Positions 2,006 through 61,325 of a DNA stretch of 64,000 nt are shown piece by piece (the first letter of the stretch is position 1; every line of letters begins with the position of its first letter). Source of the stretch: Pseudomonas cavernae (lineage in GTDB: Bacteria; Pseudomonadota; Gammaproteobacteria; Pseudomonadales; Pseudomonadaceae). The translations under genes were made by a program, and so were the position numbers. The stretch spans positions 1,860,001-1,924,000 of the forward strand of contig NZ_CP032419.1 of NCBI RefSeq assembly GCF_003595175.1. Direction: 5' to 3'. The notes under the pieces are model-generated. The model had not been told where the DNA came from and did not search any database. It worked only from the letters and a program-made list of their open reading frames with translations.

Positions 2006-2216
2006 GAGCCTGTTTACGATCTTGCGAGCTAGAGCCAGACAAGGCGCAACGACCAACGGGAGTAACAGCCGAGGAAGCGGAGTTTACGAGCTGTAAATGA
2101 GCATGACTCGCTTCACTCGCCCTACGGGCCGCGCTAAAGCGCGTTAGCAGCAAGCTGCTTTCCTAGGCTGTTTTTAACGCCGTATGGCCGACGCGCAGCA
2201 GATCGTGGACAGGCTC
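2006..2216. repeat. TNA-repeat element, copy R1 (about 211 bp)
   Basis: First long copy of a palindromic intergenic element. The left end reads GAGCCTGTTTACGATC and the right end is its near reverse complement, ending GACAGGCTC. The interior holds a GTAAA-containing block and a short inverted GC-rich segment shared with copies R3-R9. The right end abuts TTA at 2217-2219, which is the stop codon (complement) of the DUF2790 gene. The left flank is GCA, so the flanks do not match in this copy. No coding capacity. Confidence 0.85.
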
Positions 2217-2483
2217 TTACAGGGCGCCCCAACAATTACCCATCACCTGATAATCGAGGCGTCGGGTCTCGCCCTTGCTGTCGAGGTAGATCATGGTGGC
2301 GGGCACCACTTCGCAGCTGTCGGGTTGTGGCGTGATGGAGATGACCTTCTGGATATCCAGCGCCATTCCGTATTCGTACTGGGTGGCTGGGGGCTCAGTG
2401 TTCGGGGTGCTTGGCTCGTCGCTTGCGGCCATGGCCGTGGCGGCGAGCAAGGCCATGGACAGGCAGGCCAGTTTGCTGATCAT
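2217..2483 (-). CDS. DUF2790 secreted small protein
   Basis: An 88-residue protein with a typical signal peptide (MISKLACLSMALLAATAMAA, cleavage probably after AMA). The mature part matches the Pseudomonas DUF2790 family: YGMALDIQKVISITPQPDSC followed by VVPATMIYLDSKG and VMGNC. Two cysteines in the mature region could form a disulphide. Family members are small periplasmic or secreted proteins of unknown function, sometimes metal- or stress-induced. Its stop codon is exactly the trinucleotide abutting repeat copy R1, so the repeat inserted without altering the protein. Confidence 0.85.
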   Translation of the reverse strand: MISKLACLSMALLAATAMAASDEPSTPNTEPPATQYEYGMALDIQKVISITPQPDSCEVVPATMIYLDSKGETRRLDYQVMGNCWGAL

Positions 2484-2621
2484 TTTTTCGATCCTCTCGG
2501 CTAATTCCTGAGGTGAAAGTCTATTCCTCGGTAATCGGCAATAAAGAGGCGCTCGGGTGATTCACCGTTACATGCGGCGTAACAGTGCTGGCCGGACGTT
2601 CAGGCGCCTGTCGCGTCCATA

Positions 2622-2651
2622 GAGCCTATTCACGTTCTCGCGATCAGGCTC
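2622..2651. repeat. Minimal copy R2 of the TNA-repeat element (30 bp)
   Basis: A 30 bp sequence, GAGCCTATTCACG joined directly to TTCTCGCGATCAGGCTC. It resembles the two ends of the long element with the whole interior deleted, and is followed by TTA. It lies 43 bp upstream of the LysR start, in a 211 bp gap that shows no other gene. Confidence 0.55.
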
Positions 2652-2694
2652 TTACCCTGGCCGGAAAACCTCCTCCCTCCAGTAAAGGCCACCT

Positions 2695-3627
2695 ATGGAT
2701 CTGCTGCATGGCATGCGTGTCTTCGTCCGGGTCATCGAGGCCGGCAGCTTCACCGCCGCCGCGCAACTGCTCGAGCTGTCCACCGCTCAGGTGTCACGGC
2801 TGGTCTCTGATCTGGAAGCGCACCTGCAGGCGCGTCTGCTGCAGCGCACCACCCGGCGGCTGATGCTCACCGAGTCCGGCGAGCGTTTTCTGCTGCGCTG
2901 CCGGCAGATCCTCGGCGAAGTGGAAGAGGCCAGAGTGGAAGCCCGCGGCGCGCATCTGCAGCCCAGCGGCCGGCTGCGGGTGCACAGCATGAACGGCCTG
3001 GGCATCCTCATCACGCCTTTGATCGCCCGCTACAACGCGCTGTATCCGGACGTGGCCTTCGAGCTGACCCTGTCGCAGCACAACCCCGACCCGCTGGAGG
3101 AGGGCCATGACGTGGTGATCTCCATCGGCGAGGCGCTGCCCGATTCGCAGCTGGTCGCCCAGTCGATCGGCGCGTTGTACAGCGTGGTCTGCGCCTCGCC
3201 CGACTACCTCCAGCGGCATGGCGTGCCGGCGCGGCCGGCGGAGCTACAGGCGCACCGCTGCCTGCACCTGGTCGAACCCCTGGACAAGGAGGAGTGGCTG
3301 TTCCGCGACGATCAGGACGAGCATCTGGTGCTGCCGAGCAAGGCGTTCCACACCAACGTCGCCGAGTCGATGGCCAAGGCCTCGCAGGCGGGCATGGGCG
3401 TCAGTCTGTTGCCGTTCTACACCGCGACCGAGCCGTTGCGGGACGGCAAGCTGTTGCGCCTGCTAGCGGACTATCGGCTGCGCGAGCGGCACATCTATGC
3501 GCTGTATCCGTCGCGGCGCTTTCTCGATGCCAAGGTGCGCACCTGGGTGGATTTCCTCAAGCGTGAGTTGCCCAGGGTATTCGCCAAGCACGAGCGGGTG
3601 CTGAGCGATCCCCGCCACTGGGCCTGA
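2695..3627 (+). CDS. LysR-family transcriptional regulator
   Basis: A 310-residue LysR-type regulator. The N-terminal winged helix-turn-helix (about residues 1-60; FVRVIEAGSFTAAAQLLELS, then SRLVSDLEAHLQARLLQRTT) is followed by a periplasmic-binding-protein-like effector domain (about 90-300). It resembles the CrgA/DmlR-type subgroup that often controls single oxidoreductase genes or autoregulates. No divergent target gene lies next to it: upstream is 200 bp of gap with a repeat fragment, downstream repeat R3 starts directly after the stop. The effector is unknown. Confidence 0.92.
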   Translation: MDLLHGMRVFVRVIEAGSFTAAAQLLELSTAQVSRLVSDLEAHLQARLLQRTTRRLMLTESGERFLLRCRQILGEVEEARVEARGAHLQPSGRLRVHSMNGLGILITPLIARYNALYPDVAFELTLSQHNPDPLEEGHDVVISIGEALPDSQLVAQSIGALYSVVCASPDYLQRHGVPARPAELQAHRCLHLVEPLDKEEWLFRDDQDEHLVLPSKAFHTNVAESMAKASQAGMGVSLLPFYTATEPLRDGKLLRLLADYRLRERHIYALYPSRRFLDAKVRTWVDFLKRELPRVFAKHERVLSDPRHWA

Positions 3628-3794
3628 GAGCCTGTTTACGATCTGCTGCGCGTCGGCCATACGGCGTTAAAAATGCCCTCGGGTGCTCATTTACAGCCCG
3701 TAAACTCCGCGCCCTCGGCCATTTTGACCAGCCGGAGGCTGTTACTAACGTAGCGCCTTGTCTGGCTCTAGCTCGCGAGATCGTAAACAGGCTC
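3628..3794. repeat. TNA-repeat element, copy R3 (167 bp)
   Basis: Runs GAGCCTGTTTACGATCTGC ... GCGAGATCGTAAACAGGCTC and is flanked by TGA on both sides (3625-3627 and 3795-3797). The left TGA is the stop codon of the LysR gene. Ends are inverted repeats of about 17 bp; the interior has no ORF. Confidence 0.88.
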
Positions 3795-3811
3795 TGAGCC
3801 GCCGGCCGCGC

Positions 3812-5716
3812 TCAGCGCCCGGCCAGCACCTGGGTCGCGCCCTGGACCTTCTGGGTGTACCACAGCACCCGGCTGACGCCGCGGGTGATCGCCACGTAGG
3901 CCAGGCGCAGGCTCTCGTCTTGCATCGCCTGGTCGTAGCTGTTGCGGAAGAATCCCGAATGGGCATAGAGCGCATTGCGCAGCGGGTGTGGTTCGGGCGG
4001 CGCGCAGTCGTCGAGGATGATCGCCACCTCGGCCTGCAGGCCCTTGGCGCGGTGGATGGTGTAGGTCTTGACCGGCAGCTTGCGCTCGAGCCCGGCCTGG
4101 ATCGCCTGCAGCGCGGCGTTGCGCCGGCTCAAGACCAGCACGGCGGTGCGCTCGCTGCTGCCGCGTGCCGCGACCTGCGCGCATTGCACCTCGATTTCCT
4201 TGAGCAGTTCCGGCAGGCGCGCCTTGAGATCGAAGCGCGGTACCAGCTTCACGCCGTGGTCGCCCGGTTGCGTGGCCTTGTGCGCCTGGCTGGCCTTGGC
4301 CTGCTTGAACGCCACGCCGGCCAGCACCCTTTCGCCGTCGCGAATCACCGGCTCGATGGAGCGGTAATTGGTCGCCAGCATCAGCACCGCGCTCTTGTTC
4401 TTGCCTTTGCTCGGGAAGTGCCGGTCGAAGTCCATGAACAGCTCCGGCGAGCTGCCGCGCCAGCCGTAGATGGACTGCCAGTCGTCGCCGATGGCCATCA
4501 GGCTAACCGCCTCGCCCTGGCGCGCCAGGCGCCGATGCACGGCCTGCAGCCACTGGACGATTTGCGGCGAGATGTCCTGGAACTCGTCGATCAGCAGGTG
4601 CGCGAACGGCGCCAGGGCCTCGGGCGCAATCGCGGCCGTAGCGTCGCCAAGCCGCTCGCCGAGTTGGCGGAAGGCCGCGTTGAAGGTCATCAGGCCCTGC
4701 TCGCGCAACAGCGCCTCGAAGTGCCTCCAGAACTGCACCAGGGCCTCGGCGAACAGGCGCTCACGGGGCGAGCAGGCCAGCGCCTGGGGCTGCAGCTGGT
4801 CGATGCGGATGCCGATGCTTTCCATGAAGCCGGCCTGGACGTGGAAGGCCTCGAACAGTGGCAGTGCGCTGAACTCGCCCGCCAGCTTGAAGGCATCCAG
4901 CGGCGCCTTGGGGATGCGCTTGGCCTCGGCGGCCAGCGGCGGCAGGCCCAGCAGGCTGTGGACCCGCTCGCGGAACTCCGCCTCGGCGGCGTAGCAGCGC
5001 TGGTAGGCCTGTTGCAGCAGGCGCTGCTGGGCCGGGCGCAGGCGGCTGGCGAGCAGGGGATTGTCCGGCTCCTCGCCGCCGTCCAGCTGCTCGAACCAGC
5101 GCGGGTTGTCCAGCACCGCGCGGGCCAGGGTGGCCATGGCCGAGTGGAAGGTGCGCACGCACTGGCGCGCCAGGTCGGCATCGAAGGGGTAGTCCCAGAA
5201 CGCCAGGACCTTGAGCAATTGCTCGCGCAACTGGGCGCAGGAGGCGTTGGTGAAGGAGATCACCGTCAGCTGCTGCGGGGCGATGCCCAGGTGGCAGAGC
5301 ATGAACACCACGCGCAGCACCAGGGTGGTCGACTTGCCCGAGCCGGCCCCGGCGAAGATGCGGGTGAGCGGCTGGCCACCGAGGATCATCGCCCACTGCT
5401 CGTCGGACGGCGCACCGATCAGGCCGGCGGCCACCGCCTTGCCGACCCGTGCGCGCATGGCCGCGACCTGCGCGGCGTCGATCTGCAGCGCGGCGCCGTA
5501 GATGCCGTCTGCGCCGGTCTGGCGCGGCCGGGGCGGGCCGTTCGCGGCTTTCTTCGCACCGGCCTTGCCAGCGCCGGCCTTCTTCGCCCGTGCCTTGGCT
5601 TTGCTCGGCGGTCCGGCGGCGCTGCGTTCGGCCCGCAGGTAGGCGGTGGTACGCGGGAAGTAACGCGCCAGCGCTCCGGACAGGAGGGCCTTGTAGCGCC
5701 GGACGGCAGACAGCAT
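3812..5716 (-). CDS. UvrD/Rep-type superfamily 1 DNA helicase
   Basis: A 634-residue SF1A helicase. Visible motifs: Walker A GAGSGKST (residues 123-130), motif II DEFQDIS, motif III GDDWQSIYGWRG, motif IV NYRS, motif V YTIHRAKGLQAEVAIILDD and motif VI LRLAYVAITRGVSRVLW. The first 75 residues are an Ala/Lys-rich, low-complexity basic tail unlike core UvrD, so the true start could be slightly downstream. Family members unwind duplex DNA 3'-5' using ATP in repair or replication restart. This shorter, divergent form is not UvrD or Rep themselves. It stands alone, convergent with the LysR gene and divergent from pcaI. Confidence 0.9.
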   Translation of the reverse strand: MLSAVRRYKALLSGALARYFPRTTAYLRAERSAAGPPSKAKARAKKAGAGKAGAKKAANGPPRPRQTGADGIYGAALQIDAAQVAAMRARVGKAVAAGLIGAPSDEQWAMILGGQPLTRIFAGAGSGKSTTLVLRVVFMLCHLGIAPQQLTVISFTNASCAQLREQLLKVLAFWDYPFDADLARQCVRTFHSAMATLARAVLDNPRWFEQLDGGEEPDNPLLASRLRPAQQRLLQQAYQRCYAAEAEFRERVHSLLGLPPLAAEAKRIPKAPLDAFKLAGEFSALPLFEAFHVQAGFMESIGIRIDQLQPQALACSPRERLFAEALVQFWRHFEALLREQGLMTFNAAFRQLGERLGDATAAIAPEALAPFAHLLIDEFQDISPQIVQWLQAVHRRLARQGEAVSLMAIGDDWQSIYGWRGSSPELFMDFDRHFPSKGKNKSAVLMLATNYRSIEPVIRDGERVLAGVAFKQAKASQAHKATQPGDHGVKLVPRFDLKARLPELLKEIEVQCAQVAARGSSERTAVLVLSRRNAALQAIQAGLERKLPVKTYTIHRAKGLQAEVAIILDDCAPPEPHPLRNALYAHSGFFRNSYDQAMQDESLRLAYVAITRGVSRVLWYTQKVQGATQVLAGR

Positions 5717-5821
5717 GCAGTGGTTCCAACGGAAAGCTATGTAGATGAATCATAAGCGCTTTCGGCATGGGCATGGGGCCATCGCCCGGCAGCGGAGCTC
5801 GCGCGAGGGGTTGGTGATTTT

Positions 5822-5855
5822 GTTCGATAAACGCACAGATAGTCGATTATCGGAT
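5822..5855. promoter_or_regulatory. PcaR-like operator boxes before pcaI
   Basis: GTTCGATAAACGCAC (5822-5836) differs at one position from the box GTTCGATAATCGCAC that I recall as the published PcaR site in P. putida. A second related block, AGTCGATTATCGGAT, follows at 5841-5855. They lie 79-112 bp upstream of pcaI, in the 217 bp gap between divergent genes. Binding by a PcaR-type IclR regulator is inferred. Confidence 0.65.
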
Positions 5856-5933
5856 TGTTTGCGCGGGGCGTGCTGATTAAGGTTTGTCCAACGGCGCTGC
5901 CATTGCGCCTCGGACAACAAGACGAGAACTCCC

Positions 5934-6800
5934 ATGGCTGAACTCCTGACCCTGCGCGAAGCCGTCGAGCGCTTCGTGAATGACGGCGACACAGTCGCCC
6001 TCGAAGGCTTCACCCACCTGATTCCCACTGCCGCGTCCCACGAATTGATCCGCCAGGGCAAGAAAGACCTGTGCCTGGTGCGCATGACCCCCGACCTGGT
6101 CTATGACCTGCTGATCGGCGCCGGCTGTGCCAAGAAGCTGATCTTCTCCTGGGGCGGCAACCCCGGCGTCGGTTCGCTGCATCGCCTGCGCGACGCGGTC
6201 GAGAAGGACTGGCCGCACGCCCTTGAGATCGAAGAGCACAGCCACGCCGACCTGGCCAACTCCTACGTCGCCGGCGCCTCCGGCCTGCCGTTCGCGGTGC
6301 TGCGCGCCTACGCCGGCTCCGACCTGCCGAAGGTCAACCCGCTGCTGAAGACCGTGACCTGCCCGTTCACCGGCGAAGTGCTGGCCGCGGTGCCCTCGGT
6401 GCGCCCGGACGTCACCGTGATCCACGCGCAGAAGGCCGACCGCAAGGGCAACGTGTTGCTCTGGGGCATCCTCGGCGTGCAGAAGGAGGCGGCCCTGGCG
6501 GCCAAGCGCTGCATCGTCACCGTGGAGGAGATAGTCGATGACCTGAATGCGCCGATGAACGCCTGCGTGCTGCCGACCTGGGCGCTGACCGCCGTCTGCC
6601 ACGTCCCCGGCGGCGCGCACCCGTCCTACGCCCACGGCTACTACGAGCGCGACAACCGCTTCTACCAGGCCTGGGACCCGATCGCCCGCGACCGCGACAC
6701 CTTCACCGCGTGGATCGACGAGTACATCCGCGGCACCGAGGATTTCGCCGCCTTTCAAGAAAAGATCGGGCAAGCCAAGATCGCGGAGGCCAACCAATGA
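5934..6800 (+). CDS. pcaI: 3-oxoadipate CoA-transferase, subunit A
   Basis: A 288-residue CoA-transferase family I alpha subunit. With PcaJ it moves CoA from succinyl-CoA to 3-oxoadipate, the penultimate step of the beta-ketoadipate pathway in the cytoplasm. The glycine-rich N-terminal region (GDTVALEGFTHLIP) and FSWGGNPGVGSLHRLRD are typical. The length fits the longer CatI/PA0226-like type rather than the 231-residue P. putida PcaI. The gene overlaps pcaJ by 4 bp (ATGA), and PcaR-like boxes lie upstream. Assignment to the protocatechuate branch rests on the neighbouring pcaF, pcaB, pcaD and pcaC. Confidence 0.93.
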   Translation: MAELLTLREAVERFVNDGDTVALEGFTHLIPTAASHELIRQGKKDLCLVRMTPDLVYDLLIGAGCAKKLIFSWGGNPGVGSLHRLRDAVEKDWPHALEIEEHSHADLANSYVAGASGLPFAVLRAYAGSDLPKVNPLLKTVTCPFTGEVLAAVPSVRPDVTVIHAQKADRKGNVLLWGILGVQKEAALAAKRCIVTVEEIVDDLNAPMNACVLPTWALTAVCHVPGGAHPSYAHGYYERDNRFYQAWDPIARDRDTFTAWIDEYIRGTEDFAAFQEKIGQAKIAEANQ

Positions 6801-8781: not shown

Positions 8782-8802
8782 CCGACGCCTACGACGCTCC
8801 CT

Positions 8803-10361: not shown

Positions 10362-10362
10362 G

Positions 10363-19190: not shown

Positions 19191-19250
19191 AACAACACGC
19201 AACTGGGACATAGCCTTTTGCTACTCGCTAGCCGTAGGTCGAATTGAGCG

Positions 19251-19271
19251 ATGGAACCGGGTTCTATATTC
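19251..19271. promoter_or_regulatory. Putative shared operator O3 before the EamA gene
   Basis: GGAACCGGGTTCTATATTC (19253-19271) shares GGTTCYATATTC with O1 and the GAACC-N-GGTTC dyad with O2. It lies 60 bp upstream of the transporter start. Confidence 0.6.
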
Positions 19272-19330
19272 TTTCGCGCCTGTTCACCATACACGGTCGC
19301 GGCCTTAGCCGGCCCGACCAGGGAAGCCCG

Positions 19331-20212
19331 ATGAGTACCCCCCGCGTGCCGCTGTCCGGCACCAACCAGCCTTTCAAGGGCATCCTGCTGATCGTCCTGG
19401 CGACCTTGCTGTTCTCCAGCCACGACGCCCTGTCGAAATACCTGTCCGGTTTCTACCCGATCATCATGGTGGTGTGGGCGCGCTATCTGGTGCACACCCT
19501 GCTGATGGCCGGGATCTTCCTGCCGCAGTCCGGTCTGCGCGTGCTGCGCACCAAGCGACCGCTGCTGCAGGCGCTACGTGCCTTGTGCCTGCTCGGCACC
19601 AGCCTGCTGTTCACCTCCGGGCTGCTGTTCATCCCGCTGGCGGAGGCCACTGCGGTCAACTTCCTCGCCCCGGTGCTGGTCACCGCGCTGTCGGTGCCGC
19701 TGCTCGGCGAGCGGGTCAGCCTCGGCCAGTGGCTGGCGGTGTCGGCGGGCTTCGTCGGCGTGCTGATCATCGTCCACCCGGGTGGCGCGCTGTTCACCCC
19801 GGCGATCCTCCTGCCACTCGGCTCGGCGCTGTGCTTCTGCTTCTACCAGCTGCTCACGCGCAAGCTCAGCGAGATCGACAGCCCGACCACCAGCAACTTC
19901 TTTGCCGGCCTGTTCAACACCCTGCTGATGAGTGGGCTGGTGGTGTTCTTCTGGCAGCTGCCGAGCTTCGGCCACGCCTTGCTGATGCTGGCCCTGGGCG
20001 GCTGCGGGATGACCGCGCACCTGCTCCTGACCCAGGCCTTCCGGCATGCCGCCCCGGCCTTGCTGGCGCCGTTCGGATATTGCCAGATCGTGTTTGCCGG
20101 CCTGCTCGGCTTCCTGCTCTTCGCCCACACCCCGGATGCCACCGCCCTGGTCGGCATCGCGGTGATCTGCCTGAGCGGCCTCGCCGCTGCCTGGCAGCAG
20201 CGCGGCCGCTGA
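19331..20212 (+). CDS. EamA/DMT-family inner membrane transporter
   Basis: A 293-residue protein with about ten hydrophobic helices arranged as two EamA repeats (residues about 16-145 and 155-285). It shows PLLGERVSLGQWLAVSAGFVGV, typical of the helix 4-5 region. The drug/metabolite superfamily exports or imports small metabolites. ATG 19331 has gggaag upstream; the longer frame from 19244 would start in the operator. Its promoter carries the motif shared with the FAD dehydrogenase and Gfo/Idh genes, so it probably moves the substrate or a product of that set. The stop TGA is duplicated at the far side of repeat R4. Confidence 0.9.
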   Translation: MSTPRVPLSGTNQPFKGILLIVLATLLFSSHDALSKYLSGFYPIIMVVWARYLVHTLLMAGIFLPQSGLRVLRTKRPLLQALRALCLLGTSLLFTSGLLFIPLAEATAVNFLAPVLVTALSVPLLGERVSLGQWLAVSAGFVGVLIIVHPGGALFTPAILLPLGSALCFCFYQLLTRKLSEIDSPTTSNFFAGLFNTLLMSGLVVFFWQLPSFGHALLMLALGGCGMTAHLLLTQAFRHAAPALLAPFGYCQIVFAGLLGFLLFAHTPDATALVGIAVICLSGLAAAWQQRGR

Positions 20213-20355
20213 GAGCCTGTTTACGATCTCGCGAGCTAGAGTCAAACAAGGCGCAACGACCAACGGGTCGCGCTGAAGCGCGTTAGCCGCAAGCGGCTTG
20301 CCGAAGCCGTTTTCAACGCAGTTTGACCGACGCGCAGCAGATCGTAGACAGGTTC
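20213..20355. repeat. TNA-repeat element, copy R4 (143 bp)
   Basis: GAGCCTGTTTACGATCTCGC at the left; right end GATCGTAGACAGGTTC. Flanked by TGA on both sides (20210-20212 and 20356-20358). The left TGA is the EamA stop codon. Confidence 0.88.
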
Positions 20356-28595: not shown

Positions 28596-28848
28596 GAGCT
28601 TGTTTACGATCTGCTGCGCGTCGGCCATACGGCGTTGAAATCGGGCTCAGCAAGCCGCTTGCGGCTAACGCGCTTCAGCGCGGCCCGGAGGGCGAGTGAA
28701 ACGAGTACTGCTCATTTACAACTCGTAAACTGCGCGTCTTCGCCCGATTTACTCGCTGGCTCGCCCTGCGGGCCAGCCTGCGGCTGTTACTCCGCTTCGC
28801 TGCGTTGCGCCTTGTCTGGCCCTAGCTCGCGAGATCGTAAACAGGCTC
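28596..28848. repeat. TNA-repeat element, copy R5 (253 bp, long form)
   Basis: GAGCTTGTTTACGATCTGC at the left, GCGAGATCGTAAACAGGCTC at the right. Flanks are TAA and TGA, both TNA but not identical. The longer interior contains GCTCATTTACAACTCGTAAAC and two small inverted GC-rich blocks. Confidence 0.85.
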
Positions 28849-29095: not shown

Positions 29096-30349
29096 TCAGT
29101 AGGTGTATTGCAGTTGCAGCCAGACCTTGTCGGTATCGACGGTACGGGCCACGTCATCCGAGTTGTAGCTGGCGTACTTGACCAGGCCGACCAGCCCCTT
29201 CACTCCGGGGATCGGGTGGGCATAGGAGAGGTCGATCTCGTCACCGTAGCTGTCGCTGGTCCGCTCGGTCTCGAAGTCGTGATACCAGGCCTGCAGGGTG
29301 CCACCGGCGAGCGGTGCGGTGAAACCTAGGTAGGCGTCCTCGATGCCGTCGGCGGGGGTGGTGAGGAACTGGTCGGCCCAGCCCTGGAAGACGTGCTTGG
29401 TCGCCAGCGGCGTCTGGAAGGCACGGTTGCCGGAGCTGTTGTCGCCGCCTAGCACCTCGTAGCCGGCCTTCAGTTGCACGCCTTTGAAGGTATAACCAAG
29501 CTCAGCGAGGCGGTACTCGCTGTCCAGGTCCACGGGGTTGTCGGCGTAGTCGTTCTGCTGCGCGTATTCCAGGGCGTAGCTGATGCCCGCGACGGCACCG
29601 GTGAGGCGCAGGCCGCTGGTCTTGCTGGACAGCGTGCCTAGCGGCGCGGTGGCTGCCACGGCGATGTTGTCCAGGCCGAGCAGGTAGCTGTAGGCGGTCA
29701 CCGTGAGTTCCGGCATGAGCAGGTACTGGGCATTGATCAGGTGGCTGTGGCCTTCGATGTTGGCCGGGTTGGTGCGGTTGTCGAAACGGCCGTTGTCGGG
29801 GCCGAAGATGGTGTTGATGTTGTCGAGGTAGGCGTAGGTCAGGGTCAGGCCTTCGAGCGGCTTGAACTGGGCGAGCGCGCCGTCGTAGGTCTGCTCGTTC
29901 TGCCGCCAGGCCACCCCGCCGATGAAGCGCTGGTTGTCCAGGTTGATGCGCTGACGGCCGAGTACGGCGTTGCCGTAGCGGTGGTCGTAGCGCAGCAGGA
30001 GCTGGTTGATCTCGGTGCCGTCCGGGTCGACGACCATGGCGTATTCCTTCTGGCCGTTGCGGGTGTCGTTGTAGGCGGCATCGCCCAGACGGCTGACGTT
30101 GTCGACCTCGACCAGGCTCGACAGGCCGTACCACTTGCCGCTCTGGAAGCCGACGCGGGTGCGCAGGGTCTGGGCGTTGGCGTCGCGTAGGGCGTTGTTC
30201 TGGTCGACGTTCTCGAAGCGGTAGCGGGCATCGAGGATAGGTTTGCCCTGGGTGATCAGGTTGCTCGGGTCTTCCTCGGCGAGGGCGGCGTGACTGAGGG
30301 TCGCGCCGGCAACGGCCAGCGACAGCAGGGACAGTTTCATCATGCGCAT
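29096..30349 (-). CDS. Alginate-export-like outer membrane porin, probably of the nitrate region
   Basis: A 417-residue outer membrane beta-barrel with signal peptide (MRMMKLSLLSLAVAGATLSHAALA). It has repeated amphipathic strands and a C-terminal aromatic residue (VWLQLQYTY), as in the alginate-export porin family. The start 30349 has aggaag upstream; a 55-codon extension would read through the leader terminator. Genes nrtD, nrtB and nrtA lie upstream on the same strand, but this gene has its own sigma-54-like promoter and a leader terminator like those of nrtA and nasS. A role in nitrate or nitrite entry is inferred. Confidence 0.82.
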   Translation of the reverse strand: MRMMKLSLLSLAVAGATLSHAALAEEDPSNLITQGKPILDARYRFENVDQNNALRDANAQTLRTRVGFQSGKWYGLSSLVEVDNVSRLGDAAYNDTRNGQKEYAMVVDPDGTEINQLLLRYDHRYGNAVLGRQRINLDNQRFIGGVAWRQNEQTYDGALAQFKPLEGLTLTYAYLDNINTIFGPDNGRFDNRTNPANIEGHSHLINAQYLLMPELTVTAYSYLLGLDNIAVAATAPLGTLSSKTSGLRLTGAVAGISYALEYAQQNDYADNPVDLDSEYRLAELGYTFKGVQLKAGYEVLGGDNSSGNRAFQTPLATKHVFQGWADQFLTTPADGIEDAYLGFTAPLAGGTLQAWYHDFETERTSDSYGDEIDLSYAHPIPGVKGLVGLVKYASYNSDDVARTVDTDKVWLQLQYTY

Positions 30350-30377
30350 GGTGGTCTTCCTGTAAGCCAGATAACGC

Positions 30378-30436
30378 AAAAAAAAAACGTCACGCTGCCC
30401 GCGCTCCAGAGGTGGAGAAGGGGGGCTACCGTGACG
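30378..30436 (-). promoter_or_regulatory. Leader terminator/attenuator before the porin
   Basis: On the minus strand: ACGTCACG ... CGTGACGT followed by ten T, lying 29-87 bp before the start codon with no gene upstream to terminate. An inner CTCCA/TGGAG hairpin is present. This placement indicates attenuation, matching leaders before nrtA and nasS. Confidence 0.65.
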
Positions 30437-30489
30437 TCGTTGTCGGTTGAGTGGCAGACACGCCGTTGTGCTGACCGGGGAGGGTCTTA

Positions 30490-30504
30490 GCAGGCGGCAT
30501 GCCA
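30490..30504 (-). promoter_or_regulatory. Sigma-54-like promoter of the porin
   Basis: Minus strand TGGCA-TGCCGC-CTGC, consensus TGGCA-N6-TTGC with one mismatch. It lies about 55 bp upstream of the leader hairpin. Confidence 0.5.
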
Positions 30505-35497: not shown

Positions 35498-36712
35498 TTA
35501 CAGGGCGAAGGAGGCGGCGCTGCGGCTGCGCGCGTGAATGGCGAAGCTGCGGGCATAGGCGGCCGGATCGCTGCCGTCCCAGGTGCTGCCATCGTGCAGG
35601 GTGGAACTGCGCATGGGCTGTTCCGGCACGGCGATGCCCAGCGCTTCGGCCGCTTGCCGATAGAGGTCCAGCTGGTGAACCTGGCGGGCGATGCCGAGGA
35701 AGTCCGGGTCATCCTTGAGCAGGCCCCAGCGCCGGAACTGGGTCATGAACCAGATGCCGTCGGACAGCCAGGGCATGGTCACTTCGCCGCCGGCGAAGAA
35801 GCGCAGCGGATGGGCGTCCCGCCAGGCGTAGCCGAGGCCATCTTCGTAGTGACCGAGAAAGCGCGGCTGGATGGCCGAGAGCGGTGCGTCGACGTACTCG
35901 CTCGCGCAGATCAGCTGCGCGGTACTGCGTTTGTTCTCCTCGTTGGCATCGATGAAGCGGCTGGCTTCCAGTACGGCCATGGTCAGGGCGCGTGCGGTGT
36001 TGGGGTACTGCAGGGCGAACGCCCGGGTACAGCCCAGCACCTTTTCCGGGTGGTCGGCCCAGATTATCTGGCTGGTGGCCAGGGTGAAACCCTGCTGTTC
36101 TTCCACCGCCAGCGCACCCCAGGGGCCGCCGGCGCAGAAACCGTCGATACGCGCAGCCTGGAGGTGGGCGACCATCTGCGCGGGTGGCACGACCACGGTG
36201 TGCACATCTTCCAGCGGGTGGATGCCCTGACTCGCCAGCCAGTAATACAGCCACATGGCGTGGGTGCCAGTGGGGAAGGTCTGGGCGAAGGTGAGTTTTG
36301 CACCGGCCTGGCGTACGCGCGCGGCCAGCGCTTCGGCTGTGGTCACCCCGGCCTGCTTGAGCGGCTCGGACAGGTTGATCGCCTGGCCGTTCTGGCACAG
36401 CCCCATGAGGATGGCCATGTCGGCGGCCGTGCCGCCGAGACCCAGGTGGATACCGTAGACCTGGCCGTAGAGCGCCTGGGCGGCGTCCAGCTCGCCGGAT
36501 AACAGCTTGTCGCGCAGGGTGGCCCAGGAGGCCTGGCGCCTCAGGTTGAGCGTCAGCCCGTAGGGCTGGGCGAAACCCTGGGTGGCCGCGACTATCAACG
36601 AGGCCGAGTCGCTGAGGGCCATGAAGCCCAGCTCCAGGGTGCTCTTTTCCGGGGCGTCGCTGCCTGCGACCCAGGCCAAGTTGTCGCTACGGATGCTGCT
36701 GTTTTCGCTCAT
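35498..36712 (-). CDS. nasS: NasS-type nitrate sensor protein
   Basis: A 404-residue NrtA/CmpA-family protein without a signal peptide, so cytoplasmic. It shares with NrtA the segments LELGFMALSDSASLIVAATQ, FPTGTHAMWLYYWLAS, IIWADHPEKVLGC and FLGHYEDGLGYAW. In characterised systems NasS binds NasT and releases it when nitrate is present, letting NasT antiterminate nitrate-assimilation leaders. Its own promoter has the sigma-54 element plus leader terminator. The remnant nasT directly downstream supports the name and shows that the local pair is no longer intact. Confidence 0.85.
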   Translation of the reverse strand: MSENSSIRSDNLAWVAGSDAPEKSTLELGFMALSDSASLIVAATQGFAQPYGLTLNLRRQASWATLRDKLLSGELDAAQALYGQVYGIHLGLGGTAADMAILMGLCQNGQAINLSEPLKQAGVTTAEALAARVRQAGAKLTFAQTFPTGTHAMWLYYWLASQGIHPLEDVHTVVVPPAQMVAHLQAARIDGFCAGGPWGALAVEEQQGFTLATSQIIWADHPEKVLGCTRAFALQYPNTARALTMAVLEASRFIDANEENKRSTAQLICASEYVDAPLSAIQPRFLGHYEDGLGYAWRDAHPLRFFAGGEVTMPWLSDGIWFMTQFRRWGLLKDDPDFLGIARQVHQLDLYRQAAEALGIAVPEQPMRSSTLHDGSTWDGSDPAAYARSFAIHARSRSAASFAL

Positions 36713-36733: not shown

Positions 36734-36788
36734 ACAAAAAAGGCGCCGCCCCAGCCACCACGGGTTGGGTAGCCGGAAACGACGCCTT
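36734..36788 (-). promoter_or_regulatory. Leader terminator/attenuator before nasS
   Basis: Minus strand: AAGGCG ... CGCCTT with T-run TTTTTTG, enclosing a second stem CCGGCTACC/GGTGGCTGG (nine pairs counting G-U). It lies 22 bp before the nasS start. Same layout as nrtA and the porin. Confidence 0.65.
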
Positions 36789-36838
36789 CGTCTATGAACT
36801 GCCTCCGCCGTTGGAGAGCGCTCTGCTGCGAATGCTCA

Positions 36839-36853
36839 GCAAGCCATATGCCA
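36839..36853 (-). promoter_or_regulatory. Sigma-54-type promoter of nasS
   Basis: Minus strand TGGCA-TATGGC-TTGC, exact -24/-12 spacing. It lies about 50 bp upstream of the leader hairpin. Confidence 0.65.
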
Positions 36854-47840: not shown

Positions 47841-47842
47841 GC

Positions 47843-51848: not shown

Positions 51849-51988
51849 GAACCTGTTTACGATCTGCTGCGCGTCGGCCATACGGCGTTGAAATCGGACT
51901 CAGGCTGCTCATTTACAACTCGTAAACTGCGCGCCTTCGCCCGATTTCGCCTTGTCTGGCTCTAGCTCGCGAGATCGTAAACAGGTTC
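51849..51988. repeat. TNA-repeat element, copy R6 (140 bp)
   Basis: GAACCTGTTTACGATCTGC ... GCGAGATCGTAAACAGGTTC. Flanks are TTA at 51846-51848 and TTA at 51989-51991. The right TTA is the stop codon (complement) of the qsuD-like gene. Confidence 0.88.
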
Positions 51989-52843
51989 TTAGCTGTTCAT
52001 GCTCTGGAAATGCGCCTGCATGCGCTCGGCATTGGCCGGCGTGCCGGTGAACAACTCGAACGCCTTGACCGCCTGGAACACCGCCATGGTGCCGCCGTCC
52101 AAGGTGCGGCAGCCGAGGGCGCGGGCGTGCCTGAGCAGCTCGGTCTGCAGCGGGAAGTAGATGATCTCGGCGACCCACAGTTCGGCGCGCAGCAACTCCA
52201 CCGGCAGCGGCGTGCCGGGCAGCTTGGCCATGCCCACCGGGGTGGTGTTGACCAGGCCGTCGGCGGCGGCCACGGCGGCGGCCAGGTCCAGGCCGACCAC
52301 CGCGCGACCGGCGCCGAAGTGGGCATTGAGGCTGTCCACCAGACCCTGGGCGCGGCTCGGGTCGACCTCGAACAGGGTCAGTTCTTCGACGCCTTCGCTG
52401 AGCAGTGCGTGGGCCACCGCCGCGCCGGCGCCACCGGCGCCCATCTGCACCACGCGCCGCCGGGAGACATCCGGCAGGCCACGGCGCAAGCCTTCGGCGA
52501 AGCCCAGGCAGTCGGTGTTGTGGCCGACGCGCTTGCCGTTCTGGAACACCACGGTGTTGACGGCACCGATCCCGCGCGCCTCGGCGGACAGCTCGTCGAG
52601 CAGTGGGATCACCGCCTGCTTGCAGGGGAAGGTGATGTTCAGGCCGGTGAAGCCCATGCGCTCGGCGGCGCTCAGCAGCTCGGGGAGGGCGCTGCTGTCT
52701 AGCTTGAGCTGGTCGGGATCGAGCAGCCGGTACAGGTAGCGGATGCCCTGGGCATCGCCCTCGTGTTCGTGCAGCGCCGGGGTGCGCGAGGCCTGGATGC
52801 CGGCGCCGATCAGGCCGGCGAGTACGGATGTGTTCTGGGTCAT
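51989..52843 (-). CDS. Quinate/shikimate dehydrogenase (QsuD type)
   Basis: A 284-residue AroE-superfamily enzyme. The substrate loop IGAGIQASRTPALHEHEG is the SRTPxxHExEG form of Corynebacterium NAD-dependent quinate/shikimate dehydrogenase. Catalytic Lys lies in NITFPCKQAV and Asp in GHNTDCLGF; nucleotide motif GAGGAGAAV; C-terminus DGGTMAVFQAVKAFELFTG as in that enzyme. It oxidises quinate to 3-dehydroquinate and shikimate to 3-dehydroshikimate. It lies 5 bp from aroQ on the same strand (aroQ first). Symbol left open because naming varies. Confidence 0.88.
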   Translation of the reverse strand: MTQNTSVLAGLIGAGIQASRTPALHEHEGDAQGIRYLYRLLDPDQLKLDSSALPELLSAAERMGFTGLNITFPCKQAVIPLLDELSAEARGIGAVNTVVFQNGKRVGHNTDCLGFAEGLRRGLPDVSRRRVVQMGAGGAGAAVAHALLSEGVEELTLFEVDPSRAQGLVDSLNAHFGAGRAVVGLDLAAAVAAADGLVNTTPVGMAKLPGTPLPVELLRAELWVAEIIYFPLQTELLRHARALGCRTLDGGTMAVFQAVKAFELFTGTPANAERMQAHFQSMNS

Positions 52844-53653: not shown

Positions 53654-53910
53654 AGGTTCTGCACGAAAACTACCTGCGCTCGGTGATGCTGCGTTAAAAA
53701 CAGGCTCGGACAGTGGCTTGCCACTGAACGCCCACAGGGCGGCCCGTTAGGGCGAGTGAAGCGAGTACTGCTCATTTACAACTCGTAAACTCCGCGTCCT
53801 CACCTGTTTTATTCGCTGGCGCTCACCCTTCGGGCCAGCCTTTGGCTGTTACTCCCGTTGGTCGTTGCGCCTTGCCTGACCTTCGCTCGGTGACTTTTCG
53901 TGCAGAACCT
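53654..53910. repeat. Repeat element R7 with different ends (257 bp)
   Basis: The interior (GCTCATTTACAACTCGTAAAC, AGGGCGAGTGAAGCGAGTAC) is shared with R5 and others, but the ends are AGGTTCTGCACGAAAAC and TTTTCGTGCAGAACCT, a different 16 bp inverted repeat. The same interior under two kinds of ends marks a composite family. Confidence 0.8.
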
Positions 53911-55109: not shown

Positions 55110-55163
55110 CCAGCGGAGCGAAGGTGGGGCGGCCAGTTGGTCACCCCGCCTTGATATACAACC

Positions 55164-56129: not shown

Positions 56130-56183
56130 ACAGGGTTGTCCTTCTGCCCGCCCAGTCTTGCCGGGCGGGCCGGGTGGCAGGGC

Positions 56184-56591
56184 TCAGCCTTGCAGCTGGG
56201 TGTCGATGCGGATCTCGCCGCTGAGCAGCTTGTGCAGTGGGCAGGCATTGGCGATGTCCAGCAGGCGCGCGCGCTGCGCTTCATCCAGCGCGCCATGCAA
56301 ATCGATGCGACGCTCGATCTGCGTCAGCGCCGGCGGCGTCAGCTGTTCGGCGCTGATGAACAGCTCGACATCGATCCCCTCCAGGGCCAGGCCCTTGCGC
56401 TGGGCATACATGCTGACGGTGATGGCCGTGCAGGCACCGAGCGCCGACAGCAGCAGTTGATGCGGTGACGGCCCGCTGGCGCCGCCGCCGAGATTCTGCG
56501 GCGCATCGCCGAACCACTGGTGGGCGCCCTCCGACAGGGTGACCCGGTACGGGGTGCTGCCAATCGTGGCGGAGACGATTTCTGTGCTCAT
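56184..56591 (-). CDS. OsmC-family peroxide-detoxifying protein
   Basis: A 135-residue OsmC/Ohr-like protein. The peroxidatic cysteine is Cys54 in ALGACTAITV, the second Cys117 in ANACPLHKLLSG. It likely reduces organic hydroperoxides. It lies directly upstream (55 bp) of the quinone oxidoreductase gene on the same strand; they may be co-expressed. Confidence 0.9.
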   Translation of the reverse strand: MSTEIVSATIGSTPYRVTLSEGAHQWFGDAPQNLGGGASGPSPHQLLLSALGACTAITVSMYAQRKGLALEGIDVELFISAEQLTPPALTQIERRIDLHGALDEAQRARLLDIANACPLHKLLSGEIRIDTQLQG

Positions 56592-56759
56592 CCTGTTGCT
56601 CCTGTGCGGGTTCGGTTCTAGCCGCTTGTTCGCTCGCCGGTGGGCGGGAAGCTGGGCGATACGATAGAGAAACGGTCTGCCGGCGGGTAGTCGCGGCGAT
56701 TCGCTCGCAGCGTTCCACGGGCGGAACGCTGCTGGGCGTGGCCCGCCGGGTGCGCCGCT

Positions 56760-57881
56760 TCAGCCGCGGTAATAGCGTTGCGGCACGAACGGCGTTTTGG
56801 CGACGTGCATGGCCACCCGCTTGCCACGCACCAGGGCCCAGACCTCGTTGCCCAGGGTTGCCTGGTCGCTCGAGAGATAACCCATGGCCAGCGGCGCGCC
56901 GAGGCTCGGGCCGAAGCCGCCACTGCACACCTGGCCGATCGCATGGCCGTCGGCATTGATGATTTGTGCACCCTCGCGCACCGGCGTGCGCTCCTGCGGC
57001 AGCAGGCCGACGCGTTTGCGCGCCACGCCATCGCGTTGCTGGGCGAAGATCCGCTCGGCGCCGGGGAAGCCGCCGGCGCGTGTGCCATCGCTGCGGCGCG
57101 CCTTGGACAGGGCCCAGCCGAGGCTGGCTTCGATGGGCGTGGTCGCCGTGCTCATGTCATGGCCGTAGAGGCACAGACCGGCCTCCAGACGCAGCGAGTC
57201 ACGGGCGCCGAGGCCGATCGCTTCGACCTCCGGTTCGGCCAGCAGCCGGCGCGCCAGGGCTTCGGCCTGAGCCGTCGGCACGGAAATCTCGAAACCGTCC
57301 TCGCCGGTGTAGCCGGAGCGGCTGACATAGCAGTCGACACCCAACAGCTGAAGCTGGGCGAACTGCATGAAGGTCATGCTGCGCACCTGCGGCGCCAGGC
57401 GGGCCAGCACCTCGACCGCCTGTGGGCCTTGCAGGGCGAGCAGGGCGCGGGTCTTGAACAGGCTTTCGACCTCGCAATGTTCGCCGATGTGCTGGCGCAG
57501 GTGGGCCAGGTCCTGCTCCTTGCAGGCGGCGTTGACCACCAGGACCAGCTGGTCGCCGGCATTGGCCACCATCAGGTCGTCGAGGATGCCGCCGTGCCCG
57601 TCGGTGAACAGGGCATAGCGCTGCAGCCCGGCCGGCAGCTCGAGGATGTCCACTGGCACCAGGCTTTCCAGGGCCTGGGCCGCCCCCTGCCCGCGCAGGA
57701 TGATCTGGCCCATGTGCGAGACATCGAACAGCCCGGCTTGGGCGCGGGTGTGCTGATGCTCCTTGAGCACGCCCAGCGGGTATTGCACCGGCATGTCGTA
57801 ACCGGCGAAGGGCACCATGCGCGCGCCGAGTTCGAGGTGCAGGGCATGCAGCGGGGTGCGGGCGAGGGTTTCGGTGGTCAT
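56760..57881 (-). CDS. gcvT: Aminomethyltransferase of the glycine cleavage system
   Basis: A 373-residue T protein: [65 protein letters not shown]. It transfers the aminomethyl group to tetrahydrofolate, releasing ammonia. In Pseudomonas this paralog usually follows gcvH, gcvP, glyA and sdaA; here sdaA lies upstream on the same strand, but 282 bp with repeat R8 and CCCTCTCC hairpins separate them. Confidence 0.95.
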
Positions 57882-57904
57882 CTAATGCTCCAGTAAAGGT
57901 GTAA

Positions 57905-58044
57905 GAGCCTGTCTACGATCTGCTGTGCGTCGGCCAAACTGCGTTGAAAACGGCTTCGGAATGCTCATTTACAACGAGTAAACTCCGCTTCCTCAGCCGT
58001 TTTCGCCTTGTTTGACTCTAGCTCGCAAGATCGTAAACAGGCTC
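57905..58044. repeat. TNA-repeat element, copy R8 (140 bp)
   Basis: GAGCCTGTCTACGATCTGC ... GCAAGATCGTAAACAGGCTC. Flanked by TAA on both sides (57902-57904 and 58045-58047). It lies between sdaA and gcvT. Confidence 0.87.
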
Positions 58045-58060
58045 TAACGAGTGGCCGTTT

Positions 58061-58160
58061 TCCCTCTCCCCAACCCTCTCCCGTAAACGGGAGAGGGGGC
58101 TGTCCGCGGGCCGCCACTCCCCTCGCCCATTCATGGGAGAGGGGGCGGGGGAGAGGGTGC
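58061..58160. repeat. CCCTCTCCC hairpins
   Basis: Two tandem hairpins of the GGGAGAGGG type: one at about 58061-58100 (with CCCGTAAACGGG core), one at 58118-58159 (CCATTCATGGG core). They lie just past the sdaA stop. Confidence 0.75.
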
Positions 58161-58163
58161 TGT

Positions 58164-59540
<1,377 letters not shown>

Positions 59541-59748
59541 AACCTTGGAGCTTCTGCTGAGCGAGTGACTCTTATCTGTCAGCGTAGACCGGGATGCTGC
59601 CGCACCGCGCGACACCTGACCGCCAGCAGCTTCAGGCTGCGCTGCGCGATATCTTTGCGGGCGCTGCTTGATATTTTGAACGGGCGATGCGTATTTTGTA
59701 CGCGTCGCTCATGTGGAGCGGTATCTGTATCTACAAGGATAAGAAGTC

Positions 59749-61092
59749 ATGACTACCGACGGCCGCAGTTCGCTCGCCGAACGCTTGTCCGGCATCGATG
59801 AAATCGAGTGTGTAACCCCTGACCTGAATGGTGTGCCGCGCGGCAAGGTGATGACCGCCGAAGGCTTCCTCGAGGGGCGGCGCCTGCAATTGGCCCGTGG
59901 CGTGCTACTGCAATGCATCATGGGCGGTTATCCGCCGGCCAGCTTCTACGGCAGCGATGACGGCGATCTGGCGCTGAATGCCGACCCCGCGCAGATCCAC
60001 CGCCTGCCCTGGAGCGACAGCCCGCGCGCCCTGGCCATCTGCGATGCCGATGAACTGGATGGCCGCAGTTCCGGGCTGTCGACCCGTGCCCTGCTCAAGC
60101 GGGTGATCGCCAACTATGCCGCACGCGGCTTGGCGCCGGTGGTGGCGACCGAGCTGGAGTTCTTCGTCTTCGCCCCCAACAGCGACCCGCAGCAACCCTT
60201 CCAGCCGCCGCTGGGCCTCGACGGGCGCCGCGAGGCCGGTTATTCGGCGTTCAGCGTCGCTTCCAACAGCGGACTGCGACCGTTCTTCGAGGAGGTCTAC
60301 CGCTGCATGGCGGCGCTCGGTCTGCCGCGCGACACCTTCATGCACGAGATGGGCGTCAGCCAGTTCGAGATCAACCTGCTGCACGGCGACCCGCTGCTGC
60401 TGGCAGACCAGACCTTCCTGTTCAAGCACCTGCTCAAGGAAGTGGCGCTCAAACACGGCCTGATCGTGGTGTGCATGGCCAAGCCGCTGGCCAAGACGCC
60501 GGGAAGCTCCATGCACATCCATCAGAGCGTGGTGGAACAGGACAGCGGGCGGAATATCTTCAGCGACGCGGCAGGCGAGGCGACGCCGGCGTTCTATCAC
60601 TTCATCGGCGGTCAGCAGGCGGCGCTGGCCGACTTCACGCTGCTGTTCGCGCCGAACGTGAATTCCTACCAGCGCCTCTGCCACCCCTACGCTTCGCCGA
60701 ACAATGCCTGCTGGTCGCACGACAACCGCGCCGCCGGCCTGCGCATTCCGGCCAGCTCGCCGGTGGCGCGGCGGGTGGAGAACCGCCTGCCGGGCGCCGA
60801 CGCCAATCCCTATCTGGCCTTGGCCGCCAGCCTGGCCGCCGGTCTGTACGGGATCGAGCAGGAGTTGCAGCCGAGTAAGCCGATCCAGGGCGTGTTCGAG
60901 GTGCCGGATGAGCTGAGCCTGCCGTGCACCATGCACGCGGCGATCGAGCGGTTGAAGCGCAGCCAGTTGGCGCGGGAACTGTTCGGCAGCGAGTTCATCG
61001 AAGGCTACATCGCGACCAAGACGCTGGAGCTGACCAGCTTCTTCGATGAAATCACCCCCTGGGAACGGCGTGTCCTCGCCGCCCAGGCCTAA
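59749..61092 (+). CDS. Glutamine-synthetase-family gamma-glutamyl ligase
   Basis: A 447-residue GS-like ligase of the type that glutamylates polyamines or amines (PauA/PuuA relatives). Features: ELEFFVFAPNSDP, QFEINLLHGDPL, KTPGSSMHIHQSV, NRLPGADANPYLALAASLAAG. Residues of the metal and ATP sites (Glu, His in SSMHIHQS) are conserved. Divergent from sdaA. Its stop TAA is duplicated beyond repeat R9. The acceptor amine is unknown. Confidence 0.9.
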   Translation: MTTDGRSSLAERLSGIDEIECVTPDLNGVPRGKVMTAEGFLEGRRLQLARGVLLQCIMGGYPPASFYGSDDGDLALNADPAQIHRLPWSDSPRALAICDADELDGRSSGLSTRALLKRVIANYAARGLAPVVATELEFFVFAPNSDPQQPFQPPLGLDGRREAGYSAFSVASNSGLRPFFEEVYRCMAALGLPRDTFMHEMGVSQFEINLLHGDPLLLADQTFLFKHLLKEVALKHGLIVVCMAKPLAKTPGSSMHIHQSVVEQDSGRNIFSDAAGEATPAFYHFIGGQQAALADFTLLFAPNVNSYQRLCHPYASPNNACWSHDNRAAGLRIPASSPVARRVENRLPGADANPYLALAASLAAGLYGIEQELQPSKPIQGVFEVPDELSLPCTMHAAIERLKRSQLARELFGSEFIEGYIATKTLELTSFFDEITPWERRVLAAQA

Positions 61093-61232
61093 GAACCTGT
61101 CTACGATCTGCTGCGCGTCGGTCAAACTGCGTTGAAAACGGCCTCGGAATGCTCATTTACAACGCGTAAACTCCGCTTCCTCAGCCGTTTTCGCCTTGTT
61201 TGACTCTAGCTCGCGAGATCGTAAACAGGCTC
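61093..61232. repeat. TNA-repeat element, copy R9 (140 bp)
   Basis: GAACCTGTCTACGATCTGC ... GCGAGATCGTAAACAGGCTC. Flanks are TAA at 61090-61092 (stop codon of the ligase gene) and TAA at 61233-61235. Confidence 0.88.
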
Positions 61233-61302
61233 TAACAGGCTGTCGTGCTAGTGGTCTGTACGGCTAGTTGCTGAACTCAAGTTCTGATGACTGGGGTTCT
61301 GA

Positions 61303-61325
61303 GAGCCTGTTTACGATCTCGCGAC
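61303..61325. repeat. Half copy R10 of the TNA-repeat element
   Basis: GAGCCTGTTTACGATCTCGC preceded by TGA, with no right end. It lies 71 bp past R9, before the MFS gene. Confidence 0.6.

Follow-up and report, generated by a model that had tools for sequence, protein, structure and literature searches.

A hairpin element abutting stop codons in Pseudomonas cavernae

The window, a 64,000-nucleotide stretch of Pseudomonas cavernae DNA, carries a series of full copies and remnants of a palindromic element, designated R1 to R10 (Table 1). The elements are short and, as judged from their size and from the gene calls, non-coding. Genes and stops were called with a purpose-built hexamer gene caller. 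With ≤3 mismatches allowed, the window contains 16 occurrences of the element's 16-bp end, against an expectation of 0.28, and none of 100 shuffles reached 16. An earlier, sequence-only reading had listed the trinucleotides flanking R3, R4, R5, R6, R8 and R9 and had placed R1, R3, R4, R6 and R9 against stop codons; both the flanks and the five stops were confirmed. By eye, R2 resembles two degenerate ends joined together, and no core match was found there.

Table 1. Copies and remnants of the element in the window, with flanking trinucleotides and adjoining genes.
Copy	Coordinates	Strand	Description	Flanks (left / right)	Context
R1	2006..2216	-	211-bp class I element	GCA / TTA	called reverse gene 2217-2483 ends on the right TTA (stop TAA)
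R2	2622..2651	.	30-bp remnant	ATA / TTA	
R3	3628..3794	+	167-bp class I element	TGA / TGA (duplicated)	gene 2695-3627 ends on the left TGA
R4	20213..20355	-	143-bp class I element	TGA / TGA (duplicated)	gene 19244-20212 ends on the left TGA
R5	28596..28848	+	253-bp class I element; extra modules in both arms	TAA / TGA	away from any called stop
R6	51849..51988	+	140-bp class I element	TTA / TTA (duplicated)	reverse gene 51989-52843 ends on the right TTA; relatives lack the element here
R7	53672..53835	+	weak core match, 34.2 bits; left end class II-type (TCA then GGTTCTGCACGAAAAC); no class given for right end		
R8	57905..58044	+	140-bp class I element	TAA / TAA (duplicated)	intergenic
R9	61093..61232	+	140-bp class I element	TAA / TAA (duplicated)	gene 59749-61092 ends on the left TAA; relatives lack the element here
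R10	61303..61318	+	lone class I end; no partner end found	TGA before	

Genome-wide, 272 ends were found at ≤2 mismatches, compared with 21 for the reversed pattern. Whole elements were counted in 61 pieces of the same genome totalling 1.263 Mb, namely the window and 60 tiles, 50 of which were picked for containing pattern matches, two because they adjoin the window and eight without selection. This census contained 80 two-ended elements, none of them in the eight unselected tiles, and 46 of the 80 were exactly 140 bp long. Identical 3-bp flanks bordered 68, and in 66 of these the repeat was TNA; two more had a non-TNA repeat, and the other 12 had no identical 3-bp flank. The same set of 80 revealed a target preference for C-TNA-G. 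The 3-bp TNA duplication proposed from the sequence is thus borne out: rather than most copies lacking TNA flanks, 66 of the 80 in the 1.26 Mb sampled carry TNA on both sides.

Matching ends on IS5-family insertion sequences

The ends resemble those of ISLrh, a member of the IS1031 subgroup of the IS5 family, for which the available text of PMC12016507 gives a TNA target and GAACCTGTCTAGTATCT as the 17-bp repeat. This repeat is identical at 15 of 17 positions to the GAACCTGTCTACGATCT of the window element, and the IS1031 group and the element are further alike in their TNA target and 3-bp duplication (PMC12016507, same text). A search for complete insertion sequences (ISs) with the element's ends, as the sequence-only reading had suggested, recovered four full copies of 891-964 bp in two MAGs of other bacteria, all four with identical TNA flanks. 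The 17-bp ends match both ends of the ISs at L140, L147 and L187, while L137 has one change at one end. The L140 ORFs were assigned to the IS5 family by both Pfam and NCBIfam, and the L147 ORF gave a Pfam match to DDE_Tnp_1. Within the genus, IS remnants with such ends are present at L251 and L258.

The P. cavernae genome itself yielded no match to PF13340 or to the L140 transposase. Its three PF01609 matches lack the element's ends, and the one checked by NCBIfam proved to be IS1182. The IS1031-type partner is therefore either absent from this genome or not recognised there. The sole candidate for a full IS in the sampled DNA of this genome, a pair of ends 2.1 kb apart, turned out to be the left and right ends of neighbouring miniature elements (MITEs), and PF13340 loci in four of 15 carrier genomes had no TNA-flanked inverted ends in the stretch examined, two of these loci beginning at a contig edge. 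Unlike the IS1031-group ISs, the window element is a 140-bp hairpin without a transposase, and its interior is dissimilar to that of the four ISs. Indeed, when R6 and R9 were compared with them, similarity at E≤0.001 was confined to the terminal 17-18 bp, so that an origin by internal deletion is unsupported for these four ISs. The earlier proposal of a non-autonomous element mobilised by an IS1031-type transposase is supported by the ends and the TNA duplication, within the limits that no such transposase was found in the P. cavernae genome, that the interior is unlike these ISs and that other ends carry the same core as well. From sequence comparison, a MITE of the IS5/IS1031 kind is supported, and copies with GARCCTGTYTACGATCT ends would be moved in trans by an IS1031-type IS5-family transposase.

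Enrichment and regeneration of stop codons

A called stop abuts 45 of the 80 elements and 41 of the 66 with TNA flanks. At context-matched, non-disruptive TNA sites, 13.8 stops would be expected for the 66, and none of 20000 simulations reached 41; a second estimate gave 15.7, and a model with wider flanks 25.6%. The comparison with matched TNA sites that had been called for thus sets 41 of 66 against an expected 14-17. Among insertions up to 60 nt from a gene 3' end, 57-62% would already be expected at the stop, against 41 of 49 observed (p 0.0009 against 62%). The excess at stops is thus mostly a matter of landing near gene 3' ends, with a lesser excess left at the stop codon.

Read on the appropriate strand, TNA is a TAA or TGA stop codon, so a copy that inserts at such a codon restores it. 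This regeneration had also been proposed from the sequence, and comparison with relatives supports it: two loci, R6 and R9, are empty there, and most of the orthologs examined at these loci have their stop at the same codon or very close to it. Insertions within genes or near their 5' ends would probably be thinned by selection, and such selection, combined with the C-TNA-G preference, could account for most of the stop pattern.

A shared core with several sets of ends

The inner core was present in 81 of 99 genomes of the genus examined, P. cavernae included. On this homologous core we found three or more types of matched ends, and the P. cavernae genome itself has several of them. Under a strict class assignment, which replaced a looser class I definition allowing two mismatches in nine, 111 of 149 core matches had the same class at both ends and none had mixed classes; for 38, one class could not be assigned at both ends. 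Several classes keep a length near 140 bp with the ends in register. Candidate partners for the other ends are an IS1182 IS in the same genome and the IS5-family ISs L124/L128. The IS copies of genome G276 were rejected as partners of the CAGGCCGTTGAAAAA ends, as their own ends read GGGCCTGTTGCCGTTT. By eye, the CAGGCCGTTGAAAAA motif at these copies seems to be part of a neighbouring element.

Since the ends appear to have changed in matched pairs, different transposases may be able to move the same core. Tests of whether each class forms one clade rejected a single origin for class III (p 0.008, with two sub-consensus ends pooled) but not for class I (0.067) or class II (0.107), and repeated end changes are therefore not firmly shown. 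Two core trees differ in the number of end changes that their well-supported branches force.

The structured core spans about 108 nt inside a hairpin of about 140 nt. The arms covary: two-sided changes affect 19 of 29 pairs, and 96.5% of cells are paired. On each measure none of 500 shuffles did as well, and slid versions were 36-48% paired. We favour the idea that, during replication, one arm of the palindrome may be copied from the other, which could generate two-sided changes in the stem as well as matched ends.

Orientation at stop codons

At stops, the copies have a preferred orientation with respect to the gene (54:16), namely A-first as read from the upstream gene; in other genera the split is weak (9:6). 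A TNA preference was considered as the source of this bias and is unsupported for the N base, which at non-stop copies does not predict orientation (17:16). This orientation bias hints that the element may influence the 3' end of the mRNA from the upstream gene, in the way reported for ERIC. Five strands give strong folds (z -6.3 to -9.5), the favoured A strand folding less stably than the B strand, and A1 has conserved internal positions. When G.U is set against A.C mismatches, neither strand is consistently preferred, which argues against selection at the RNA level; the wobble asymmetry that might have served as proof of such selection was not found. An Rfam search of the window returned four matches at E≤1, none on any element.

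Discussion

MITEs are usually viewed as shrunken copies of one IS, to which they remain tied. We read the present element as an old hairpin MITE lineage with a changed transposase partner, and perhaps with an ERIC-like effect on mRNA 3' ends. To the overall account, of IS1031-type MITEs at stops with a genus-wide core, matched end changes and a possible 3' mRNA effect, we assign a probability of roughly 0.78. A fuller version, which we hold tentatively and at somewhat less than even odds, is that an ancient core persists genus-wide by switching transposases. Both ends would be exchanged as a pair to suit a different IS group each time, be it IS5/IS1031 (TNA), a second IS5 group (TA) or an IS1182-like one, with internal stem pairs kept by compensatory change. 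Stops would be rebuilt in two systems, by TNA or by TA plus the element's first G to give TAG; the element would then tend to face one way at the 3' ends of mRNAs and may affect the transcript there.

It is possible, though the odds lean against it, that these are ordinary IS1031-type MITEs for which the TNA target and selection against other sites fully explain the stops, the core and orientation being without significance. The TNA and C-TNA-G preference fits this, as does the fact that 57-62% of matched sites within 60 nt of 3' ends are stops anyway; yet the excess of 41/49 over 62% persists, orientation is 54:16 at stops against 17:16 for the N base at non-stop copies, and the core occurs genus-wide with other ends. 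The orientation bias might instead be an effect of insertion, the transposase preferring to set one particular end on the coding flank of its target. We consider this rather improbable: the bias does appear where the target is a stop and is absent at other sites, but the N base has no predictive value at the latter.

That the hairpin is an RNA element, kept because the A-first transcript would process or protect mRNA 3' ends as ERIC or NEMIS might, with mobility secondary, seems unlikely. The orientation bias, the strong folds, the conserved positions in A1 and the orientation-dependent ERIC effects described in the available part of PMC2229807 would agree with it, whereas the unbiased wobble pairs, the greater stability of the B strand and the lack of Rfam matches on the elements in the window would not. 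We are similarly sceptical that the core was passed between MITE families by recombination instead of one lineage changing its ends. Class I ends do enclose other interiors at 3457678, 3501994 and 4843982 (by eye) and class III is not one clade; against this stand the ~140 bp length and in-register ends across several classes, and the lack of any mixed-end copy among 149.

The ERIC/IRU elements of enterobacteria are likewise palindromic MITEs (127 bp in ERIC) inserted at gene 3' ends, with a reported orientation-dependent effect on upstream mRNA; their ends differ, being 7 bp long with terminal TA, and the likeness is one of behaviour only (PMC2229807, PMC10969869, in the portions available). 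Correia/NEMIS of Neisseria are also hairpin MITEs, and processing of mRNA by RNase III is reported for them; they differ in having 24-bp ends with TA at the termini, and the same portions of these papers describe no stop-codon targeting (PMC2229807, PMC10969869). Also comparable are the MITE-like intergenic repeats R0 (89 bp) and R2 (110 bp) of Pseudomonas fluorescens, whose inverted repeats equal those of ISs in the same strain and which have a tail-to-tail bias; compared by description, they are separate families and not one core with several ends, and R178 of that species (101 bp, all three strains) might, from its description, be related to the window element (PMC2718517, partial text). 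In a text search of a literature collection, five 13-base end strings did not occur, the papers among the matches listed for other end and inner strings look unrelated, and the titles and abstract openings listed did not describe the element.

By restoring the stop on which it lands, the element has a simple route of spread in a gene-dense genome, leaving genes unbroken, and it puts a strong hairpin directly behind many genes. One core with several matched sets of ends, even inside a single genome, would show a non-autonomous element outliving its transposase by changing ends, and the series of end classes on that core is natural material for testing how ends change.

Abundance, ends and flanks of the element

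The palindromic element and its ends, as described in the sequence-only reading, are real. The window holds 16 occurrences of the end motif where 0.28 would be expected; the 4.95-Mb P. cavernae genome has 272 (up to two mismatches), compared with 21 for the reversed pattern. We examined 1.263 Mb of this DNA: the window and 60 stretches, of which 50 were picked for end-motif matches, 2 adjoin the window and 8 were unselected. Pairing of ends gave 80 elements, none of them in the eight unselected tiles; 46 are exactly 140 bp long. The proposed TNA duplication was common. Identical 3-bp flanks border 68 of the 80 elements, TNA in 66 and another repeat in 2, while 12 have no identical flank. The flank consensus is C-TNA-G (C in 68/80, G in 60/80). 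The exact TNA-plus-end pattern is present in 25 of 298 genus genomes, including this one.

In elements of 196 and 252-256 bp, one arm or both are extended by modules of about 56 bp. By eye, the two arm modules seem mutually complementary and would thus lengthen the stem from both sides. Three class I elements (those with the 17-bp IS1031-like ends) enclose other interiors: CCCTCTCCC/GGGAGAGGG hairpins in two, a different palindromic repeat in the third. Class I ends therefore recur without the core, the structured inner part, as well. Separate repeats and RNA-like matches are tabulated.

Coordinates of elements, other repeats, insertion sequences and RNA-like matches
Feature	Position	Strand	Remark
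Element with arm modules	window 28596-28848		example
Class I ends, other interior	G000:C1:3457678, 3501994, 4843982		L067, L068, L082
CCCTCTCCC...GGGAGAGGG hairpin repeat	window 11902, 43825, 47364, 51795, 58052, 58119		families D16, D17; hairpins similar to those inside two class I elements
Short palindromic repeat around GTAGGATGGGTTGAGCGCAGCGATACCCATC	window 8840, 11753, 11811, 47421		family D15
IS copies, CAGGCTGTGTGAAAA ends, 4-bp GACC flanks	G000:C1:2298204, 2307950, 1112840		L091-L093
narK RNA-like match	window 30431-30503	minus	Rfam 38.5, below gathering cut-off 43.2; directly upstream of called minus-strand gene 29096-30379
narK RNA-like match	window 36779-36852	minus	Rfam 37.2, below gathering cut-off 43.2; directly upstream of called minus-strand gene 35498-36712

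A conserved hairpin core carries several sets of ends

The elements form long hairpins (z -6.3 to -9.5, five strands folded). In an alignment that combines 12 cores from this genome with 20 of relatives, two-sided changes occur at 19 of 29 pairs and 96.5% of cells pair. Slid versions pair at 36-48%, a comparison biased towards the structure, as this was derived from the alignment itself; none of 500 shuffles matched on any measure, a contrast inflated by related rows. Counting only pairs with Watson-Crick as the commonest state, wobble cells had no consistent strand bias: on the A strand of the alignment, G.U exceeded A.C in cells (27 vs 14), yet not in pairs (9 vs 11); own cores gave 24 vs 17 cells and 7 vs 11 pairs, and for the outer stem in own copies the cell counts were 2 vs 12.

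With R9, a 140-bp window element, as query, matches in relatives stopped short of the element ends. Reading 20 such matches and 30 core-model matches revealed other in-register ends on the same core: GGYTCTGTACGAAAAG with TA, and CAGRCCGTGTGAAAAC. Matches to the core model are present in 81 of 99 genus genomes (this one included; no more than 39 matches counted per genome) and number 101 within the 1.263 Mb, the unselected tiles contributing 2. Several end classes coexist in this genome: under strict definitions 98 classified matches comprise 70 of class I, 3 of class II, 5 of class III and 20 not assigned at both ends. The corresponding numbers for 51 other loci are 7, 19, 7 and 18, class II being enriched because loci were fetched by its ends. 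No copy in either set had a different class at each end under these definitions; one end was ambiguous between II and III. Class III copies that were read had no constant duplication.

On a core tree (rows of 77 nt only), 11 label changes are required where the minimum possible is 2. For class III, in which two sub-consensus ends were pooled, a single origin was rejected (p = 0.008); for class I (0.067) and class II (0.107) it was not. Since rejection concerns class III alone, the tree gives no firm count of end changes.

Outside Pseudomonas, core matches were found in 6 of 18 loci reported (about 100 fetched), from 106.8 bits in Pseudogulbenkiania down to 29 bits. Three near-identical weak matches of 89 nt (L075:1143, L032:6406, L061:14112) lie beside TAGGGTCTGTTGACGTTTCG and probably represent another repeat family.

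Elements abut stop codons in a preferred orientation

Of the 80 elements, 45 abut a stop called by our own hexamer gene caller (1149 genes); among the 66 bordered by duplicated TNA, the number is 41. If insertions were spread over TNA sites that disrupt no gene and share the flanking C/G and the N base, 13.8 of the 66 would be expected at stops, and 0 of 20,000 simulations reached 41. With the empty sites rebuilt the expectation is 15.7, and a wider flank model, trained on the 25 non-stop copies only, gave an expected stop share of 25.6%. The enrichment at stops is borne out. Most of it reflects preferred insertion at, or better survival close to, the 3' ends of genes: stops make up 57-62% of the matched sites that lie no more than 60 nt from a 3' end, and 41 of the 49 copies in that range abut a stop. 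Copies facing a 5' end within 60 nt are depleted (6 against 17.1 expected). As raw counts, from a caller trained on the P. cavernae genome, elements next to a stop number 25 of 39 in other Pseudomonas loci and 17 of 46 in other genera. For TA-type copies, the last base of the called gene is the first base of the element in 10 of 20 cases in other loci and 1 of 3 here (raw counts); there, TA and this G form a TAG stop.

Relative to the abutted gene, strand A came first in 34 own copies and second in 11 (p = 0.0008), in 20 and 5 in other Pseudomonas, and in 54 and 16 together (p = 6e-6); in other genera the split is 9:6, with one undecided. The p-values are optimistic, since related copies, like orthologous sites, do not count as independent events. 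When copies of every end class lying no more than 3 nt from a gene end are included, the ratios are 42:15 here and 15:4 in a further, overlapping locus set. Among non-stop copies, orientation was not linked to the N base (17:16).

Empty sites in relatives

At the R9 site, 16 of 21 relatives' loci have the stop at the identical codon and no core motif in the following 400 nt. Automatic reading missed the stop in 5 of the 21. In L283 and L297 the gene stops at the same codon, 81 and 67 nt before the next gene; in L286, L296 and L302 the gaps between the matched parts of the two genes are 78, 60 and 46 nt, too short to hold the element. At the site of R6, a second 140-bp element, 12 of 19 loci have the same stop codon and 5 stop one or two codons earlier; automatic reading missed the stop in L399 and L408, leaving 17 usable. 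In 15 of these no core motif lies within 400 nt of the stop; the sequence of L403 ends 32 nt past it, and 274 nt beyond the stop of L410 lies a core-like 7-mer. The relatives lack the element at both sites; given divergence on the intergenic side, the empty sites are clean on the gene side only.

Candidate transposase partners

Parts of PMC12016507 describe ISLrh (IS5 family, IS1031 subgroup) as having GAACCTGTCTAGTATCT ends and TNA targets. An end scan of named genomes, with a base other than G after the end, gave at least 119 stretches. Among the 80 read, at least four are full ISs of 891-964 bp with class I ends and identical TNA flanks, from one Acidobacteria MAG (L137, L147) and one Ca. 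Thiosymbion MAG (L140, L187). L137 has a single change in one end. Two ORFs of L140, in overlapping frames, match DUF4096, DDE_Tnp_1 and NF033580 IS5, and that of L147 matches DDE_Tnp_1. Likeness of R6 and R9 to the four is limited to the terminal 17-18 bp. IS remnants with class I-like ends are present in the genus (L251, L258), L258 being, by eye, inserted on a stop codon. The proposed IS5/IS1031-type source thus has counterparts with the same ends elsewhere, but no such transposase was found in this genome, where PF13340 and the L140 transposase had no matches and the three PF01609 matches all lack class I ends.

Of the own-genome ISs with CAGGCTGTGTGAAAA ends, L093 (1670 bp) was compared with family models and assigned to IS1182 (469.7 bits, cut-off 270). 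TA-type ends were found on IS5-family ISs, one end each in two contigs of genome G168; ORF direction suggests that both belong to a single IS type, as its opposite ends.

Relation to known repeats

Five 13-base strings from the ends were not found in the literature searched. Parts of PMC2718517 (2009) describe the R0 and R2 repeats as MITE-like, with repeats matching ISs and a tail-to-tail bias, and parts of PMC2229807 and PMC10969869 describe effects of ERIC and Correia elements on mRNA. The finding is real and the earlier interpretation supported; the mechanism of end change and any role as RNA are putative. Matched ends on one core, together with the orientation at stops, make this more than one further MITE family.
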